A stretch of 59,541 nt of DNA. Origin: Clostridia bacterium. Its GTDB lineage: Bacteria; Bacillota; Clostridia; Christensenellales; Aristaeellaceae. The stretch covers positions 1 to 59,541 of the forward strand of contig JAFSKN010000039.1 in assembly GCA_017448975.1 (NCBI GenBank), in the 5' to 3' direction. Shown here piece by piece: positions 5,232 through 11,663 of the stretch. The first letter of the stretch is position 1, and each line of letters begins with the position of its first letter. Under the pieces are notes generated by a model, which was given only the letters and a program-made list of their open reading frames with translations, was not told the origin of the DNA and made no database searches. Position numbers and translations under genes: made by a program.

Positions 5232-5281
5232 AAGTGTGTCGGTGGTCAGAATCAAAAGATCAGCAGGAAAGGAAAAAATTT

Positions 5282-6718
5282 GTGTTTCAAAATCATGCTC
5301 CTTTGAGCAAGCATAATGTTTCAAGGCTTACGTTCGTGATCGTGCTGGTCAGTTTTTTGCTGTCCACCTTTGTTTCTCTCTGGTCGCTGAACCTTATGAG
5401 CCAGCGGAACGACCGGGAACTGAACAAAATGATGGCCGCCCGCATTTACGACGCCATCAGCAGCGAATTGAGCGAACCGGTGACGGTGGCTTTGACCATG
5501 GCCAACGACAGTTTCCTGATCAAGGCCCTGCAAAACGAACCGCATCTTTCGGAGGAGGACAGCGTGGCCGCCCTGCAGGATTATTTGGCGGGCATCCAGA
5601 AGGGGCTGAACTACGAATCGGTTTACGTGATTTCCGAAAGCAGCAGGCGCTATTATAATTTCGACGGTCTGAGCAAGATCGTGGACCCGGAGCACGACGA
5701 GCACGATTATTGGTACGGCGTGTTTTTGAACCGGAAGCCGGTGTACGACTTGGACGTGGGCTTTGACGAGCAGAGCGGCGATATCTGGGCCGTCTTTGTG
5801 GACGCCTCCATTCGGGACGAAAGGGGAACTTTCCTTGGCGTATGCGGCGTGGGCGTGCACATGGACCAGAGCCAGGCCCTGTTCAAGAGCCTGGAAAAAG
5901 AGCATCGCGTCAAAATCAATCTGATCGACGCGGAGGGCCAGATTCAGATCGACACCGATGAAGGGGAGCTCATGGGCAAATACCACGCCGATTTGAACTT
6001 AAGCCCAAGCGGCGAATATATTTACCACGATTTAGGCGGCGGCGTTATCGCCGTAAGCAAATACATAGACAATTTGGAATGGTATCTGGTGGTGGAAAGC
6101 GACACCAGCCCCGAGCAGGGCGAATATTTCAACGTGATTTTGCTGAACATCGCCTTATTCTTATTCGTGATGGTCATTCTGATTGTTTCCCTGCGGATCA
6201 TTTCCATGCGCACCATCGCCCTGACCAACGCCTCCCTGCGGGATCAGGACACCCAATTGCTGAACCGCCGGGCCTTTGAGGAAGAAAAAGCGCGGCTTTC
6301 CATGGCGCCCCTGGATGAAAATTACGTGTATGTGACGGTGGACATCAACGGCCTGAAAACCACCAACGATACCTTGGGCCACGCCGCGGGGGATGAACTG
6401 ATCCTGGGCACGGCGAACTGCCTGCGCAAATGCTTCGGGCAGTACGGAAAGATTTATCGCATCGGCGGGGACGAGTTCGCCGCCATGCTGCAAATCAGCC
6501 CGGCGCAGCTGGCCGAACTGCGGGAGGAACTGGAAAAGATGGTGCAAGCATGGTCCGGCGAAAAAATCAAGCAGCTTTCCATTTCCTGCGGCTATGCCTC
6601 CACCCGGGAATTCCCTTCGGAAAACTTTGCCCAGCTGAGCAGGATCTCGGATGAACGGATGTATGAGGCCAAGGCGGAATACTACCGCCGCAACGGCATC
6701 GACCGGCGGAGAACCTGA
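5282..6718 (+). CDS. Cache-type membrane diguanylate cyclase (GGDEF)
   Basis: 478 residues from a GTG preceded by AGGAAAGG at 8 bases. The order is: membrane helix (about residues 15-38), extracytoplasmic region of about 240 residues consistent with a double Cache sensor, second helix (about 290-312), then a GGDEF domain. The catalytic motif is intact (RIGGDEFAAM), and the preceding DxNxLKxxND-like segment (DINGLKTTNDTLGH) is present. It should make cyclic di-GMP from two GTP in response to a small extracellular ligand. The inhibitory RxxD site five residues before GGDEF is absent (GQYGKIYR), so product inhibition through the I-site is unlikely. Confidence 0.92.
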   Translation: MFQNHAPLSKHNVSRLTFVIVLVSFLLSTFVSLWSLNLMSQRNDRELNKMMAARIYDAISSELSEPVTVALTMANDSFLIKALQNEPHLSEEDSVAALQDYLAGIQKGLNYESVYVISESSRRYYNFDGLSKIVDPEHDEHDYWYGVFLNRKPVYDLDVGFDEQSGDIWAVFVDASIRDERGTFLGVCGVGVHMDQSQALFKSLEKEHRVKINLIDAEGQIQIDTDEGELMGKYHADLNLSPSGEYIYHDLGGGVIAVSKYIDNLEWYLVVESDTSPEQGEYFNVILLNIALFLFVMVILIVSLRIISMRTIALTNASLRDQDTQLLNRRAFEEEKARLSMAPLDENYVYVTVDINGLKTTNDTLGHAAGDELILGTANCLRKCFGQYGKIYRIGGDEFAAMLQISPAQLAELREELEKMVQAWSGEKIKQLSISCGYASTREFPSENFAQLSRISDERMYEAKAEYYRRNGIDRRRT

Positions 6719-7588: not shown

Positions 7589-8518
7589 ATGAGCAAAAGA
7601 ATCGGCGTAGATTTGGGCGGCACCACCGCAAAGCTCGGCGTGGTGACCGAGCAGAATGAAATCATCGAACGCAAGGTGATCCCCACCGATAAAAGCCTGA
7701 CCTTTGAAGAAACCATCGCCGTGCTGTCGGAAGGCATTCTGAGCATGGGCGACGTGGGCATCGTGGGCTTCGGCGTGCCAAGCAGCTTAAAGCCCGTGGG
7801 CGACATCGTGATCCACGCCAATAACATGGGCTGGAAAAACAAGGACCTGCGGGGCGAGCTGAAAAAGCATTTGGGCAACATCCCCATCTTCATTGCCAAC
7901 GACGCCGATTCCGCCGCTGTGGGCGAATTCTTCCAGGGCGCGGGCCAGGGCTGCCAGAGCATGCTGATGCTCACCTTAGGCACCGGCGTGGGCGGCGGCT
8001 TCATTTATCAGGGCCGCCTGTACCGGGGCGGAAACGGCTGCGGGTTCGAGCCGGGCCACATGATCGTGCAGCAGGACGGCGTGGTGTGCTCCTGCGGCCT
8101 GCACGGGTGTCTGGAAGCCTATTGCTCCGCCACCGCCATCATCCGGGAAATCACCGCCTGCAAAAAGTCCCTCATTCTCCAGGATATGATCGCGGAAAAC
8201 GGCGGTAAAGGCAACGCCCGCATGCTGTTTGACGCGGTGCGGGCGGATGACCGCTACGCCAGGAGCATTTTAGAAAAATACGTGCACACCCTGGCTATCG
8301 GCATCGGCAGCCTGACCACCATCCTGCGCCCCGAAATCGTGGTCATCGGCGGCGGCGTCAGCGGCGCGGGCGATCTGCTGTTCGAGCCGCTTCGGGAGGA
8401 AGTGAAGCGCACCACCTTCAGCTACGACGTGATCGGCGGCGCGGCCATCATCCCCGCCGCCCTGGGCAACGATGCGGGCATTATCGGCGCGGCCCTGCTG
8501 GATCGGGTGCTGATCTAA
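7589..8518 (+). CDS. ROK family glucokinase-like sugar kinase
   Basis: 309 residues with GGGAGG ahead of the ATG. The N-terminal phosphate-binding loop is VDLGGTTAKLGVV. The central segment LTLGTGVGGG and the zinc-binding CSCGLHGCLEA motif define ROK kinases, with the catalytic Asp in NDADSAAVGEF. This length and set of motifs fit bacterial glucokinases (GlcK), which phosphorylate glucose with ATP. Other hexoses or N-acetyl sugars cannot be excluded. It is a single-gene unit with its own promoter and a strong terminator. Confidence 0.88.
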   Translation: MSKRIGVDLGGTTAKLGVVTEQNEIIERKVIPTDKSLTFEETIAVLSEGILSMGDVGIVGFGVPSSLKPVGDIVIHANNMGWKNKDLRGELKKHLGNIPIFIANDADSAAVGEFFQGAGQGCQSMLMLTLGTGVGGGFIYQGRLYRGGNGCGFEPGHMIVQQDGVVCSCGLHGCLEAYCSATAIIREITACKKSLILQDMIAENGGKGNARMLFDAVRADDRYARSILEKYVHTLAIGIGSLTTILRPEIVVIGGGVSGAGDLLFEPLREEVKRTTFSYDVIGGAAIIPAALGNDAGIIGAALLDRVLI

Positions 8519-8777: not shown

Positions 8778-9809
8778 TTATTCCGCTTTCCTGATTTCCT
8801 CCAGCGCGTCATAGCAGAAATCCTCCGCCTGGCCCGCGTCGTAGCTCATGCCCAGGCCCGTTTCGTAGGCGTTCAGGGCGGCCTGGATCACCCGCTGGTG
8901 CTCGGTGGGCATGTGGCGCAGGGCCCATTCGCCGCCTTCCTTTTTGCTGAGCACCTTGCCCTTGCGGCAGTAAGCCACCGCCCGGGCCAGATTCAAAACG
9001 AAATACACCGGGTTATCATGCAGATGCCCTTCCGCGTCCTCCACGTCATAACGGATGGCGCGGAGGGCGTCTTCACGTTTCACCTGATCGAACACCCGGG
9101 GAACGGCGGGGCCGTGGATCGCCGCGCCGTGGGCGTACAGGTTCAGGAGATGGGCCGTCAGGTCGGGGTCCACCCCGCTGGAGCTGCTGCAAAAGCCCCG
9201 GGGGTCGCGCTCGTAATCCCGCTTCCAGCGGTTGGAATAGTGCAGTTCATAGGGAATGGGATAGGGAATATTCCGGCAGTACTTTTCCAGGATGACGCTC
9301 ATTTCAAAGCCCGCGGGCGGCGCGTCCGGGGACAGGCTGTACAGCGTTTCCACCAGGGCGATCTTCTTTTCCACCGACAGGGGCCGGTGCACCACCACCA
9401 GGAAGTCGATGTCGCTGCGCTCCCACTGGAAACAGTCCGCCGCCAGGGACCCGTGCAGATAAATGCCCAGCAGGTTATCCTGCAGGATCGTATGATACCG
9501 ATCCTTGATCACCTGCATCAGCTGTTCCGCGTCCGGTGCCCCCTTGGGCGGGGCCACCCCGTTTTCCAGCAGGGTTTTCATGGCCTCGAAAGCCTTTTCC
9601 TCATCGTCGCCGTCCACGATCATGGTCACGGGTTCATGCTCGGTCATGCCCAGGGACAGGATGCCCAGCATGGATTTGCCGTTGATGGTGCGGTTGCGGT
9701 GCTCGAAGATAATGCGGGACGTAAACTCGCCCGCCGTATGCACCAAATGCTCAATCTGGGTGCGGTTGAAGGGTGTTACGCCCGATAAATCCAGCGTTTG
9801 CTTGATCAT
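8778..9809 (-). CDS. Crh-like HPr domain fused to AadA-type nucleotidyltransferase
   Basis: 343 residues from the ATG with GGGG nine bases upstream; two in-frame starts lie 9 and 15 bases earlier. Residues 1-85 align to HPr: the LVHTAGEF helix and INGKSMLGILSLG around Ser46. With this start the position equal to HPr His15 is Asn15 and the regulatory serine is exactly Ser46, as in Bacillus Crh (Gln15/Ser46). Residues 110-343 have the nucleotidyltransferase signature (Gly120-Ser121 ... Asp133-x-Asp135) and a DUF4111-like helical C-terminus, as in ANT(3'')/ANT(9) adenylyltransferases. The gene follows whiA, the place where crh lies in bacilli. Substrate unknown; the fusion is seen directly, the regulatory reading is inference. 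Confidence 0.82.
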   Translation of the reverse strand: MIKQTLDLSGVTPFNRTQIEHLVHTAGEFTSRIIFEHRNRTINGKSMLGILSLGMTEHEPVTMIVDGDDEEKAFEAMKTLLENGVAPPKGAPDAEQLMQVIKDRYHTILQDNLLGIYLHGSLAADCFQWERSDIDFLVVVHRPLSVEKKIALVETLYSLSPDAPPAGFEMSVILEKYCRNIPYPIPYELHYSNRWKRDYERDPRGFCSSSSGVDPDLTAHLLNLYAHGAAIHGPAVPRVFDQVKREDALRAIRYDVEDAEGHLHDNPVYFVLNLARAVAYCRKGKVLSKKEGGEWALRHMPTEHQRVIQAALNAYETGLGMSYDAGQAEDFCYDALEEIRKAE

Positions 9810-9825: not shown

Positions 9826-10761
9826 CTAACTTTTATCTTCCAGTATATGTGCCATCAGGGCGCGCATCCGGTGATTGACGCCGGATTTGCCGATGGGCTT
9901 AGCCAGCATCTGGCCCAGCTCCTCTAAGGAGGCTTCGGGATGCAGCATCCGAAGCCTGCCCAGCTCCTGCAAGAGCGGGGGCAGGCCGCCCAGGCTGTGG
10001 GCCAGGGAATAGGCCGTAATGGCCCGGGCCTGCTTTTCCCCCGTGGACAGCTGCTTTTTCAGGTTGGCTTCATCGCAGTTCCGCGCCCGGTTGGCCTGGT
10101 TGCGGGCGTCCCGGGAAATGCGGGTGTTTTCCATATCCAGCAGGGCGCTGTGGGCGCCCATGAGCGCAAGGCAGGAAACCACGTCGTCCCCCCGGCGCAG
10201 GTACACCACCTGGGCGTCCCGGCGCTGGGTCACATGGGGCTGAATGCCGCTTTTTTCCAGCATCTTCATCAGCGCGTCGGCATGGCCGCCGGTGGTTACA
10301 AACTCCAAATGGTATTCCTGATCGGGGGACGTGACACTGCCCGCCCCCAAAAACGCCGCCCGCACGAAAGCCGCCCGGCAGCAGCGCCGGGTGAGCGCCG
10401 CCCGGGGCACGCCCTTGAACACCGTGCCGCCCTCGCTTTCCTGCAACATGCGCAAGGCCACCAGCAGCCGCGTGCTTTCCGCCTCCGGCACCGTTAAAAT
10501 GGACAGCCGCCTGCCCCCCAGCCGCTTGTGGCGGTTGAATTCCAGCAGGGGCGTGATTTCCATGCGCCGTTTGAGCAGCAGGAAAATGCGCTTGGCCAGG
10601 GCGGGGTTTTCCGTTTCGTAAATCACCCGTATCCGGCCCCCGCCTGCCAGCCGCAGGGAGGCGCAGGTCTGGGTCAGGGCGCTCAATTCCGACAGCATGC
10701 AGCAGTGCTTTTCCGGCGTCACCCGCAGCAGTTCTTCTTTTACGCGGGAGGAAAAGCTCAT
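9826..10761 (-). CDS. whiA: DNA-binding protein WhiA
   Basis: 311 residues. It begins MSFSSRVKEELLRV, the usual WhiA start. An N-terminal homing-endonuclease-like fold is followed by the C-terminal helix-turn-helix (about residues 225-305, with LREL-type segments, HPEASLEELGQML and GVNHRMRALM). WhiA acts in sporulation of actinobacteria and in chromosome segregation and division in Firmicutes. The start overlaps the murB stop by 4 bases. The Crh-nucleotidyltransferase gene follows directly. The rapZ and yvcK genes that commonly separate murB from whiA in clostridia are not here. Confidence 0.95.
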   Translation of the reverse strand: MSFSSRVKEELLRVTPEKHCCMLSELSALTQTCASLRLAGGGRIRVIYETENPALAKRIFLLLKRRMEITPLLEFNRHKRLGGRRLSILTVPEAESTRLLVALRMLQESEGGTVFKGVPRAALTRRCCRAAFVRAAFLGAGSVTSPDQEYHLEFVTTGGHADALMKMLEKSGIQPHVTQRRDAQVVYLRRGDDVVSCLALMGAHSALLDMENTRISRDARNQANRARNCDEANLKKQLSTGEKQARAITAYSLAHSLGGLPPLLQELGRLRMLHPEASLEELGQMLAKPIGKSGVNHRMRALMAHILEDKS

Positions 10762-11663
10762 GGATCGTCCCCCACGATGCGCACTTCCGGCTCCAATAAA
10801 ACGCCGGATTCCTTCCGCACCGTATCCTGCACCAGCTTCATGAGCGCTAAGAAATCCGATGCGGCGGCCCCGCCCGCGTTGATCAGGAAACCCGCGTGCT
10901 TTTCGCTCACCCGCGCGCCGCCCACCTGCTTGCCTTTGAGGCCCGCTTTTTCGATCAGCGCCCCGGCGAAGTGCCCTTCCGGGCGCTTGAAAAACGACCC
11001 GGCGCTGGGATAATTCAGGGGCTGCTTTTCCTTCCGCCGGGCGGCGAAATCCCGCATGGCGGCGTCGATCTGTTCCTTATCGCCCTTTTCCAGCCGGAAG
11101 CGGGCTCCCACCACGATCCATTTTTCTTCCATGGCCCGGCTGTGCCGGTAGCCAAAATGCATATCGCTGCCCGGAATTTCAAGCACCGTACCGTGATCCA
11201 GCACGGTCACGCTTTCGATACACTTTCCTAATTCGCCGCCGTAGGCCCCGGCGTTCATATACACGCCGCCCCCCACAGTGCCGGGAATGCCCTGGGCAAA
11301 TTCCAGCCCGGTGAGGGATTCGCTGGCCGCTTCGCAGGCCAGAGCGCTCAGCAGCGCACCCGCCTGAGCTTTGAGGCCCCGTTCCCACGGTTCGATCCGG
11401 GAAAACGCTTTGCCCAGCCGGATCACCAGGCCCCGGAAGCCCCCGTCCCGCACCAGCAGGTTGGAGCCGTTGCCCATGAGCAGCACCGGGACCCCGGCTT
11501 CCTTCGCGGCATTCAGCAGCACGGAAAGCTCTTCCTCCGAAGACGGTTCGGCGAAATAATCCGCCGGACCGCCTACGCGAAGGGTGGTGTACTTATCCAG
11601 GGGGATGTGCTGTTGTACGCTAATGGCTGGCTCCCGAAGCGATAATTTTTCAAAGCAATTCAT
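10758..11663 (-). CDS. murB: UDP-N-acetylenolpyruvoylglucosamine reductase MurB
   Basis: 301 residues. FAD-binding segments include TTLRVGGPADYFAEP and LLMGNGSNLLVRDGGFRGLV. The middle region FAQGIPGTVGGGVYMNAGAY and the C-terminal NYPSAGSFFKRPEG contain the conserved Ser used as proton donor. It reduces UDP-GlcNAc-enolpyruvate to UDP-MurNAc in peptidoglycan synthesis in the cytoplasm. It is the first gene of murB-whiA-X, transcribed from its own promoter. The ribosome site is weak (GGGGTG about ten bases from the ATG). Confidence 0.95.
   Translation of the reverse strand: MNCFEKLSLREPAISVQQHIPLDKYTTLRVGGPADYFAEPSSEEELSVLLNAAKEAGVPVLLMGNGSNLLVRDGGFRGLVIRLGKAFSRIEPWERGLKAQAGALLSALACEAASESLTGLEFAQGIPGTVGGGVYMNAGAYGGELGKCIESVTVLDHGTVLEIPGSDMHFGYRHSRAMEEKWIVVGARFRLEKGDKEQIDAAMRDFAARRKEKQPLNYPSAGSFFKRPEGHFAGALIEKAGLKGKQVGGARVSEKHAGFLINAGGAAASDFLALMKLVQDTVRKESGVLLEPEVRIVGDDP

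Follow-up and report, generated by a model that had tools for sequence, protein, structure and literature searches.

The usual view of HPr kinase is that it controls HPr and Crh in their free form. Arg17, which Crh shares with HPr, lies near the phosphate of Ser46 when either protein is bound to CcpA. HPr domains are found also within multidomain proteins such as FPr/FruB, DhaM and EIIA-HPr, in all of which they carry His15. The gene order in Bacillus subtilis is glmR-whiA-crh, as given in the passages of PMC10714963 concerned with this region, and Crh, as portrayed in parts of PMC9631020, lacks His15 but is a potential substrate of HPr kinase at Ser46, and in its unphosphorylated form inhibits MgsA. 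Among nucleotidyltransferases, the closest described enzymes are ANT(9) and the ANT(3'')(9) enzyme AadA; and, according to the relevant passages of PMC3710099, a related helical domain is found in GlnD and GlnE, nucleotidyltransferases whose substrates are proteins. In the window, by which is meant the whole 59,541-nt stretch of DNA analysed, a single open frame joins an HPr-like domain of the Crh kind to an AadA-type nucleotidyltransferase. This frame, its relatives, and the proteins on which HPr kinase may act in the same genus are described below.

The fusion gene, its neighbours and its distribution

The fusion gene lies at 8778..9809 on the minus strand, with its ATG at 9807-9809 and its stop codon at 8778-8780, and encodes a protein of 343 aa. 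Numbered from the Met of this ATG, Asn occupies position 15 and Ser position 46 in NGKSMLGILSLG, exactly as the first-pass annotation of this DNA had claimed when placing the frame and the HPr numbering; the same start Met is aligned in relatives despite their differing upstream sequence. The HPr/Crh-like domain occupies aa 1-85 (9555..9809, minus strand), and both profile and fold place it in the HPr family (PF00381): the Pfam model PTS-HPr matches aa 20-83 above its cut-off (E 4.9e-15), and structure comparison of an AlphaFold model, which drew on only 7 sequences (mean pLDDT 67, pTM 0.45) and is too shallow for domain packing, predicts an HPr fold for the N-terminal domain. The profile of the fusions also matches the Crh structure 1mo1 (E 1.3e-12). 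The doubt whether the first 85 residues might adopt some other fold was therefore not borne out. The remainder consists of an AadA-type nucleotidyltransferase with an AadA_C helical domain (aa ~92-340; 8790..9536, minus strand). AadA_C (PF13427) matches aa 238-331 (E 3.1e-25; 88.8 bits against a cut-off of 22.2), and the N-terminal half of the transferase falls under the Pfam cut-offs (Polbeta, 24.7 against 26.9 bits; NTP_transf_2, 17.7 against 21). The GS-x11-DxD signature earlier noticed in this second domain is present as G120-S121...D133-I-D135.

Directly upstream of the fusion, with 16 nt between its end and the fusion start codon, lies whiA (9826..10761, minus strand; TIGR00647, 228.9 bits against a cut-off of 44.1), whose start is overlapped by 4 nt by murB (10758..11663, minus strand; NF010480, 374.3 bits against a cut-off of 259). 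The linkage to whiA that had been claimed by comparison with Bacillus Crh is thus present, in the gene order murB-whiA-fusion, and whiA is found directly before the fusion also in G032 and G567, two genomes from outside the genus. Convergent with the fusion gene is a gene for a ROK-family sugar kinase (7589-8518, plus strand; TIGR00744, 232.8 bits, below the cut-off of 260.35). An ORF at 5234-6718 (plus strand), recognised by eye, resembles a diguanylate cyclase, with the GGDEF-type motif RIGGDEFAAML and an N-terminal sensor-like part.

When the own genome and 59 relatives were searched, the full-length fusion was found in 28 of the 29 genomes of the genus and in G032, which belongs to another genus. 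The single genus genome without it (G017) is 95% complete and has HPr kinase; the genus genomes are drafts, 65-96% complete, and single absences carry little weight. Across the family, matches to a fusion profile at E 1e-20 occur in 118 of 308 genomes, in 31 of which a match spans both domains in one frame, and in 87 of which none does so. The fused set is made up of the 28 genomes of the genus (g1) together with G032, G566 and G567, and represents three of the 50 genera of the family. Matches were obtained in 34 of 396 genomes sampled from the order, 21 of 391 from the class and 19 of 398 from the phylum; fusions among them are confined to G000 and G001 in the order sample and to the own genome in the other two, and the remaining matches are transferase-only or HPr-only. 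The search for the domain pair across the Firmicutes thus gave 31 fused among the 308 family genomes and no fusion outside the family in the order, class and phylum samples, which as samples may miss rare cases. No phage record covers at least 80% of the fusion query. Plasmid records matching it number 4960, and 9 of them reach the same coverage of 80% or more; in the six of these that were inspected, annotated as aadA1 or Spw and ~26% identical, the upstream stretch is not an HPr gene.

In none of the genus genomes searched is the fusion replaced by two separate genes for its parts. Where unfused parts were found within one genome of the order sample, they are carried by separate contigs (G084, G351 and G369) or, in G070, share a contig at a distance of ~2.8 Mb, which would come down to ~1.1 Mb were the contig circular. 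An assembly or frame error joining two genes, which the first-pass annotation had named as a danger, can be dismissed: every genome involved is a draft assembly, but 31 genomes from three genera have the pair in a single frame, and the unfused parts are unlinked in the four genomes just named. Since the one-frame pair is present in 31 of 308 family genomes, the join is due neither to chance nor to assembly, and the HPr-AadA-type fusion is real. Both of its domains are under purifying selection, with dN/dS values, obtained by an in-house Nei-Gojobori script on 16 pairs of fused genes of our choosing, of 0.02-0.28 for the HPr domain and 0.06-0.18 for the transferase domain. Because the join is real and has been kept by selection in these gut bacteria, the enzyme may be one that is switched by carbon state.

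The origin of the HPr domain was traced in 25 chosen genomes of the order, of which 23 were found to have whiA. Behind it lies an unfused HPr-like gene in 14 (13 detected by BLAST, that of G046 by profile), the fusion in G032, and in eight neither by those tests; on alignment, Ser46 is present in all 14 of the unfused whiA-linked proteins and His15 in none. A midpoint-rooted tree of 50 HPr domains selected from a longer list (14 of them fused; 85 columns) gathers the fused domains into one clade (99/100), with which an unfused protein, the whiA-linked HPr of G057, groups (97/92). Likewise, in a tree of 51 transferase sequences, comprising 19 fused enzymes (11 close relatives having been dropped), 30 standalone enzymes, one plasmid relative and one ANT(9), the fused enzymes form one clade (100/99), nested among the standalone ones at weaker forks with 80-89% bootstrap and with a long outgroup branch. 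The two trees fit a single fusion event between a whiA-linked HPr and an AadA-type enzyme.

Serine-46 proteins and HPr kinase in the genus

Residue conservation was followed in 29 aligned fusions, those of the 28 genus genomes and of G032; counts of 30 fused copies given below add G567, and counts of 31 add G566 as well. Codon 15 (9765..9767, minus strand), in the place of the catalytic His of HPr, specifies Asn in 18 of the 29, Ser in nine, and Thr and Asp in one each, and never His. Codon 46 (9672..9674, minus strand), the site of HPr kinase, specifies Ser in 29/29, within an invariant NGKSMLG (N43-G44-K45-S46-M47-L48-G49 in the window protein); Arg16 and R40 are invariant too. The sequences TPFNR...NGKSMLG in G567 (Asn15, Ser46) and TPFTR...NGKSVLG in G566 (Thr15, Ser46) bring Ser46 to 31/31 fusions and Met47 to 30/31. 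The emphasis first laid on Asn15 therefore holds for the window protein, which has Asn and no His there, but does not extend to the fusions as a group, where Asn, Ser, Thr and Asp alternate and what is conserved is the lack of His together with Ser46. The description of the domain as Crh-like is sustained, in 29/29 fusions as well as in G567 and G566, by the absence of His15, the presence of Ser46, the association with whiA and the HPr fold. A role as phosphocarrier is ruled out by the absence of His15 from 29/29 fusions, and to judge by these residues the HPr domain of the fusion is one that no longer carries phosphate for sugar uptake. Position 17 in the 29 fusions is variously K (8), T (7), L (5), M (4), V (2), A, S or Q (1 each), and since Arg is not conserved there, a role for the fused domain as co-repressor with CcpA appears less likely.

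To place the fusion among its paralogues, HPr-family matches at E up to 0.01 were gathered from all 29 genus genomes, aligned and counted. The matches divide as follows. Fourteen HPrs in ten genomes have His15, within GIHARP or GMHAR(Q/H), and at position 46 have Lys (10), Asn (3) or Gly (1); 27 small HPr-like proteins and the 28 fusions all have Ser46 and none has His15 (55/55). The small proteins are found in 26 of the 29 genomes, being missing in G009, G016 and G020. Examples are L099 4570-4845 and L102 4173-4400, with 25 more in the genus; they read SILGIFSLD at the Ser46 site, have no His15 loop, and are 75 aa long in L102 and L103. Such a protein is not confined to the genus, occurring in certain genomes elsewhere in the family and the order, and is apparently shortened around the His15 site. 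On its sequence, the small protein is a candidate for a second Ser46-only target of HPr kinase.

The two His15 HPrs of the own genome (L101 3810-4067 and L100 5294-5665) have Lys46 and Asn46, respectively; with Ser46 so replaced, these sugar-uptake HPrs look to be cut off from HPr kinase. Elsewhere in the order both sites are kept, in one HPr of G049 and two of G042. A His15 HPr domain at G032:C164:6820-7053 (L112) lies within a 635-aa open frame, and is perhaps another HPr fusion. The contig-59 HPr of the own genome is near an Enzyme I-type match. Matches of this type at E <1e-110 are found in 7 of 22 genus genomes, the same seven of these 22 that have His15 HPrs; the other PF02896 matches in the 22 genomes are weaker, several of them in frames of ~880 aa, the size of pyruvate phosphate dikinase, and some are cut by contig ends.

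HPr kinase/phosphorylase was detected in 28 of the 29 genus genomes (21/22 and 7/7), and also in G032 and G567; in G566 it appears as two partial matches at contig ends. The kinase whose presence in the own genome had at first been presumed is indeed there, full-length by its profile score (HPr(Ser) kinase/phosphatase, 376 bits against a cut-off of 240) and with the P-loop GESGVGKS. In G009 (81% complete) the fusion is present and HPr kinase was not found. Nineteen genus genomes gave no His15 HPr, and 18 of these have HPr kinase (all save G009) and 18 the fusion (all save G017). The searches for HPr kinase and WhiA gave no match in a control genome of B. subtilis, a species that has hprK; true copies can be missed by these searches, and absences are weak. 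The same species has whiA, on the gene order given in PMC10714963. As Ser46 without His15 is seen only in the fusion and the small protein, and the kinase is present, only these two would be open to phosphorylation at Ser46; among the genus proteins found, they alone could be Ser46 substrates of HPr kinase.

Active site and acceptor side of the transferase

The roles of residues in AadA, as set out in passages of PMC6065190, were mapped onto the fusion by printed alignments; the mapping of Glu-87 is from 7uy4 and 6sxj, the 4cs6 alignment being shifted by two residues there. D133 and D135 (9405..9413, minus strand), which correspond to the metal ligands D47 and D49, are present in 30/30 fused copies; E169 (9303..9305, minus strand), at the position of the catalytic base Glu-87, in 30/30 fused and 30/30 standalone enzymes; and K289 (8943..8945, minus strand), matching the ATP phosphate contact Lys-205, in 30/30 fused copies. 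The full set of ATP/Mg residues S121, S132, D133, D135, E169, D216, R276, K289 and Y315, equivalent in that order to S36, S46, D47, D49, E87, D130, R192, K205 and Y231 of AadA, is invariant in the 30 fused copies. By this residue count the fused transferase has a complete ATP/Mg site, of the polymerase-beta type, which, with the AadA_C match above cut-off, upholds the original assignment of the second domain as AadA-like.

The acceptor side is less well preserved. The place of AadA Asp-182 is position 266, which is Asn in 16 of the 30 fused copies, His or Lys in four each, Arg or Asp in two each, and Gln or Ala in one each; that of His/Asn-185 is position 269, which is Tyr in 30/30 fused copies and in 28/30 standalone relatives. 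The place of Trp-112, position 195, is aromatic and mostly not Trp (W in 11, H in 14 and Y in five of 30), and that of Trp-173 is taken in fused copies by Glu, Gln, Ala, Ser, Asn, Asp or Pro. The best NCBIfam match of the fusion is ANT_9 (E 1.7e-25), at 89.7 bits where 340 would be required, and it scores under every curated ANT cut-off in the NCBIfam match list. Membership of the ANT(9)/ANT(3'')(9) enzymes was rejected on that score and on the lack of the Asp-182 and His/Asn-185 determinants described in those passages. The early suggestion that the substrate is possibly not a drug gains from the replacement of these two contacts: streptomycin and spectinomycin are unlikely acceptors, at least when bound in the known way.

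Standalone relatives of the transferase, from Bacillota, are 32-46% identical to it in 17 loci, and 46.7% for G510. Among 20 such loci no cluster of neighbours is shared by more than 4, the transferase itself apart, and BLAST found whiA beside none; greedy ORF picking missed the transferase in three of this set (L170, L173 and L180), and in L227, L229, L230 and L233 elsewhere. A relative without HPr domain, 35.6% identical, is carried by two Campylobacter jejuni plasmids (L239 6998-7780 and L240 6986-7780), where it is situated among aad9, aph and GNAT genes and annotated as an adenylyltransferase domain protein, itself unlisted as a resistance gene. Because this plasmid relative lies within an aminoglycoside-resistance cluster, an antibiotic acceptor for the fused transferase is possible. 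A role in defence was discarded: PADLOC gave only weak matches over the transferase fold, to the candidate system PDC-S09 (best 3.5e-7), and PHROGs none.

Possible functions and comparison with known systems

The reading that we put forward, tentatively and at somewhat less than an even chance, is that a Crh-type phosphoserine domain, derived from a whiA-linked HPr, regulates an active nucleotidyltransferase; the regulation and the acceptor are what we infer here. Of the steps involved, the most certain is that HPr kinase/phosphorylase would phosphorylate Ser46 of the fusion when carbon is plentiful, and dephosphorylate it otherwise. Next in certainty, by analogy with free Crh, which inhibits MgsA only in the unphosphorylated state, the phosphorylation state of the HPr domain may alter how active the attached transferase is, or which partner it has: when carbon is scarce the domain might hold the transferase in one state, from which phosphorylation of Ser46 would release it, or the reverse. 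Third, the transferase would move a nucleotide from ATP to an acceptor hydroxyl, the acceptor being perhaps a protein, or a small molecule either made by the cell or present in the rumen, other than streptomycin or spectinomycin bound in the known mode. A protein acceptor is possible because GlnD and GlnE are protein-modifying relatives. The reading is favoured by the invariance of Ser46 and its surroundings where residue 15 drifts, by the division of Ser46 and His15 among the HPr-family proteins of the genus, by the HPr kinase found there, by intact ATP/Mg residues beside altered drug contacts, by the single fused clade in each tree and by the precedent of Crh and MgsA; what speaks against it is the lack of a conserved Arg at position 17, the fusion of G009 where no HPr kinase was found, the kinase of G017 without a fusion, and the plasmid relative among resistance genes.

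An unlikely alternative, albeit one to be taken seriously, is that an ordinary Crh-like effector, binding CcpA, MgsA or some other partner in its phosphorylated or its unphosphorylated form, has become joined to a drug-modifying transferase that thereby gained expression from the whiA operon, with no allosteric link between them. It is perhaps relevant that in the order an HPr-like gene linked to whiA commonly has no transferase attached (14 of 23 genomes with a whiA match), and that standalone transferases are found in varied neighbourhoods, including the resistance cluster of the two plasmids; but such an arrangement accounts less readily for the retention of the fusion in 31 genomes, for the purifying selection on its two domains, for the failure to find separate parts replacing it in any genus genome, and for the two AadA drug contacts that are not kept.

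It is tempting to go beyond the regulated enzyme preferred above, and to suppose that the link between HPr kinase and the PTS has been severed in this lineage, where the sugar-carrying HPrs have lost Ser46 or are not found, and that the kinase writes instead on two Ser46-only proteins, one of which has captured a nucleotidyltransferase to become a carbon-status nucleotidylation switch of the GlnD/GlnE kind. We regard this as distinctly doubtful. If true, carbon state as sensed by HPr kinase would be passed on as a nucleotide added to a protein or a metabolite, the carbon analogue of what GlnD and GlnE do in the control of nitrogen.

Improbable, in our estimate, is a role of the HPr domain as a targeting module that attaches to a partner of HPr, be it HPr kinase, a CcpA-like regulator or a glycolytic enzyme, so that the transferase nucleotidylates the protein so reached, as a carbon counterpart of the nitrogen enzymes GlnD and GlnE. 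HPr and Crh do dock on proteins, as in the structure entries 1zvv (CcpA-Crh) and 1kkl (HPr kinase-HPr), the helical domain is related to that of GlnD and GlnE in the passages of PMC3710099 already mentioned, and the acceptor contacts of AadA are changed while the catalytic residues are kept; against this, the AadA_C domain retains the ATP-contacting residues of small-molecule enzymes. A little less probable again is a plain aminoglycoside or aminocyclitol resistance enzyme, in which a degenerate HPr prefix would aid folding or solubility. The best NCBIfam match and the position of a relative between resistance genes on the two Campylobacter plasmids would agree with this, but the ANT_9 score is far short of its cut-off, two of the four spectinomycin determinants proposed in the passages of PMC6065190 are lacking, and a passive prefix leaves the invariant Ser46 loop unexplained.

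Several consequences follow for how such proteins are viewed. With the fusion it can be tested cleanly whether an HPr domain bearing phosphoserine is able to switch the enzyme attached to it directly, and what purpose HPr kinase serves in bacteria where no PTS was found; it is also a reminder that not every AadA-type sequence has to be a gene for drug resistance. No fusion of HPr with a nucleotidyltransferase was met with in the literature searched, which comprised titles, abstracts and passages, with most subscription journals outside its scope.

With Crh of Bacillus the fusion has in common the HPr fold, the lack of His15, the presence of Ser46 and a gene directly behind whiA; Crh differs in being a free small protein with Gln15 (in the parts of PMC9631020 that describe it), where the fusion has Asn, Ser, Thr or Asp and an attached transferase. 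With ANT(9) and AadA it shares the enzyme fold and the full ATP/Mg residue set, but it has Asp182 and His/Asn185 replaced, an additional N-terminal HPr domain, and ANT scores below cut-off. Its nearest transferase relatives, the standalone AadA_C-type enzymes of Bacillota, annotated 'aminoglycoside adenylyltransferase domain-containing protein', have no HPr domain. FPr/FruB, DhaM and EIIA-HPr resemble it in housing HPr within a multidomain protein; those are, however, phosphocarrier proteins, FPr/FruB as PTS fusions presented in the passages of PMC2405797 consulted and the others by the names of their NCBIfam models, whereas here it is the Ser46 side that has been kept. Both parts of the fusion are of known kinds, and it is their combination, together with the division of His15 and Ser46 between paralogues in a lineage that has kept HPr kinase, that appears to be new.
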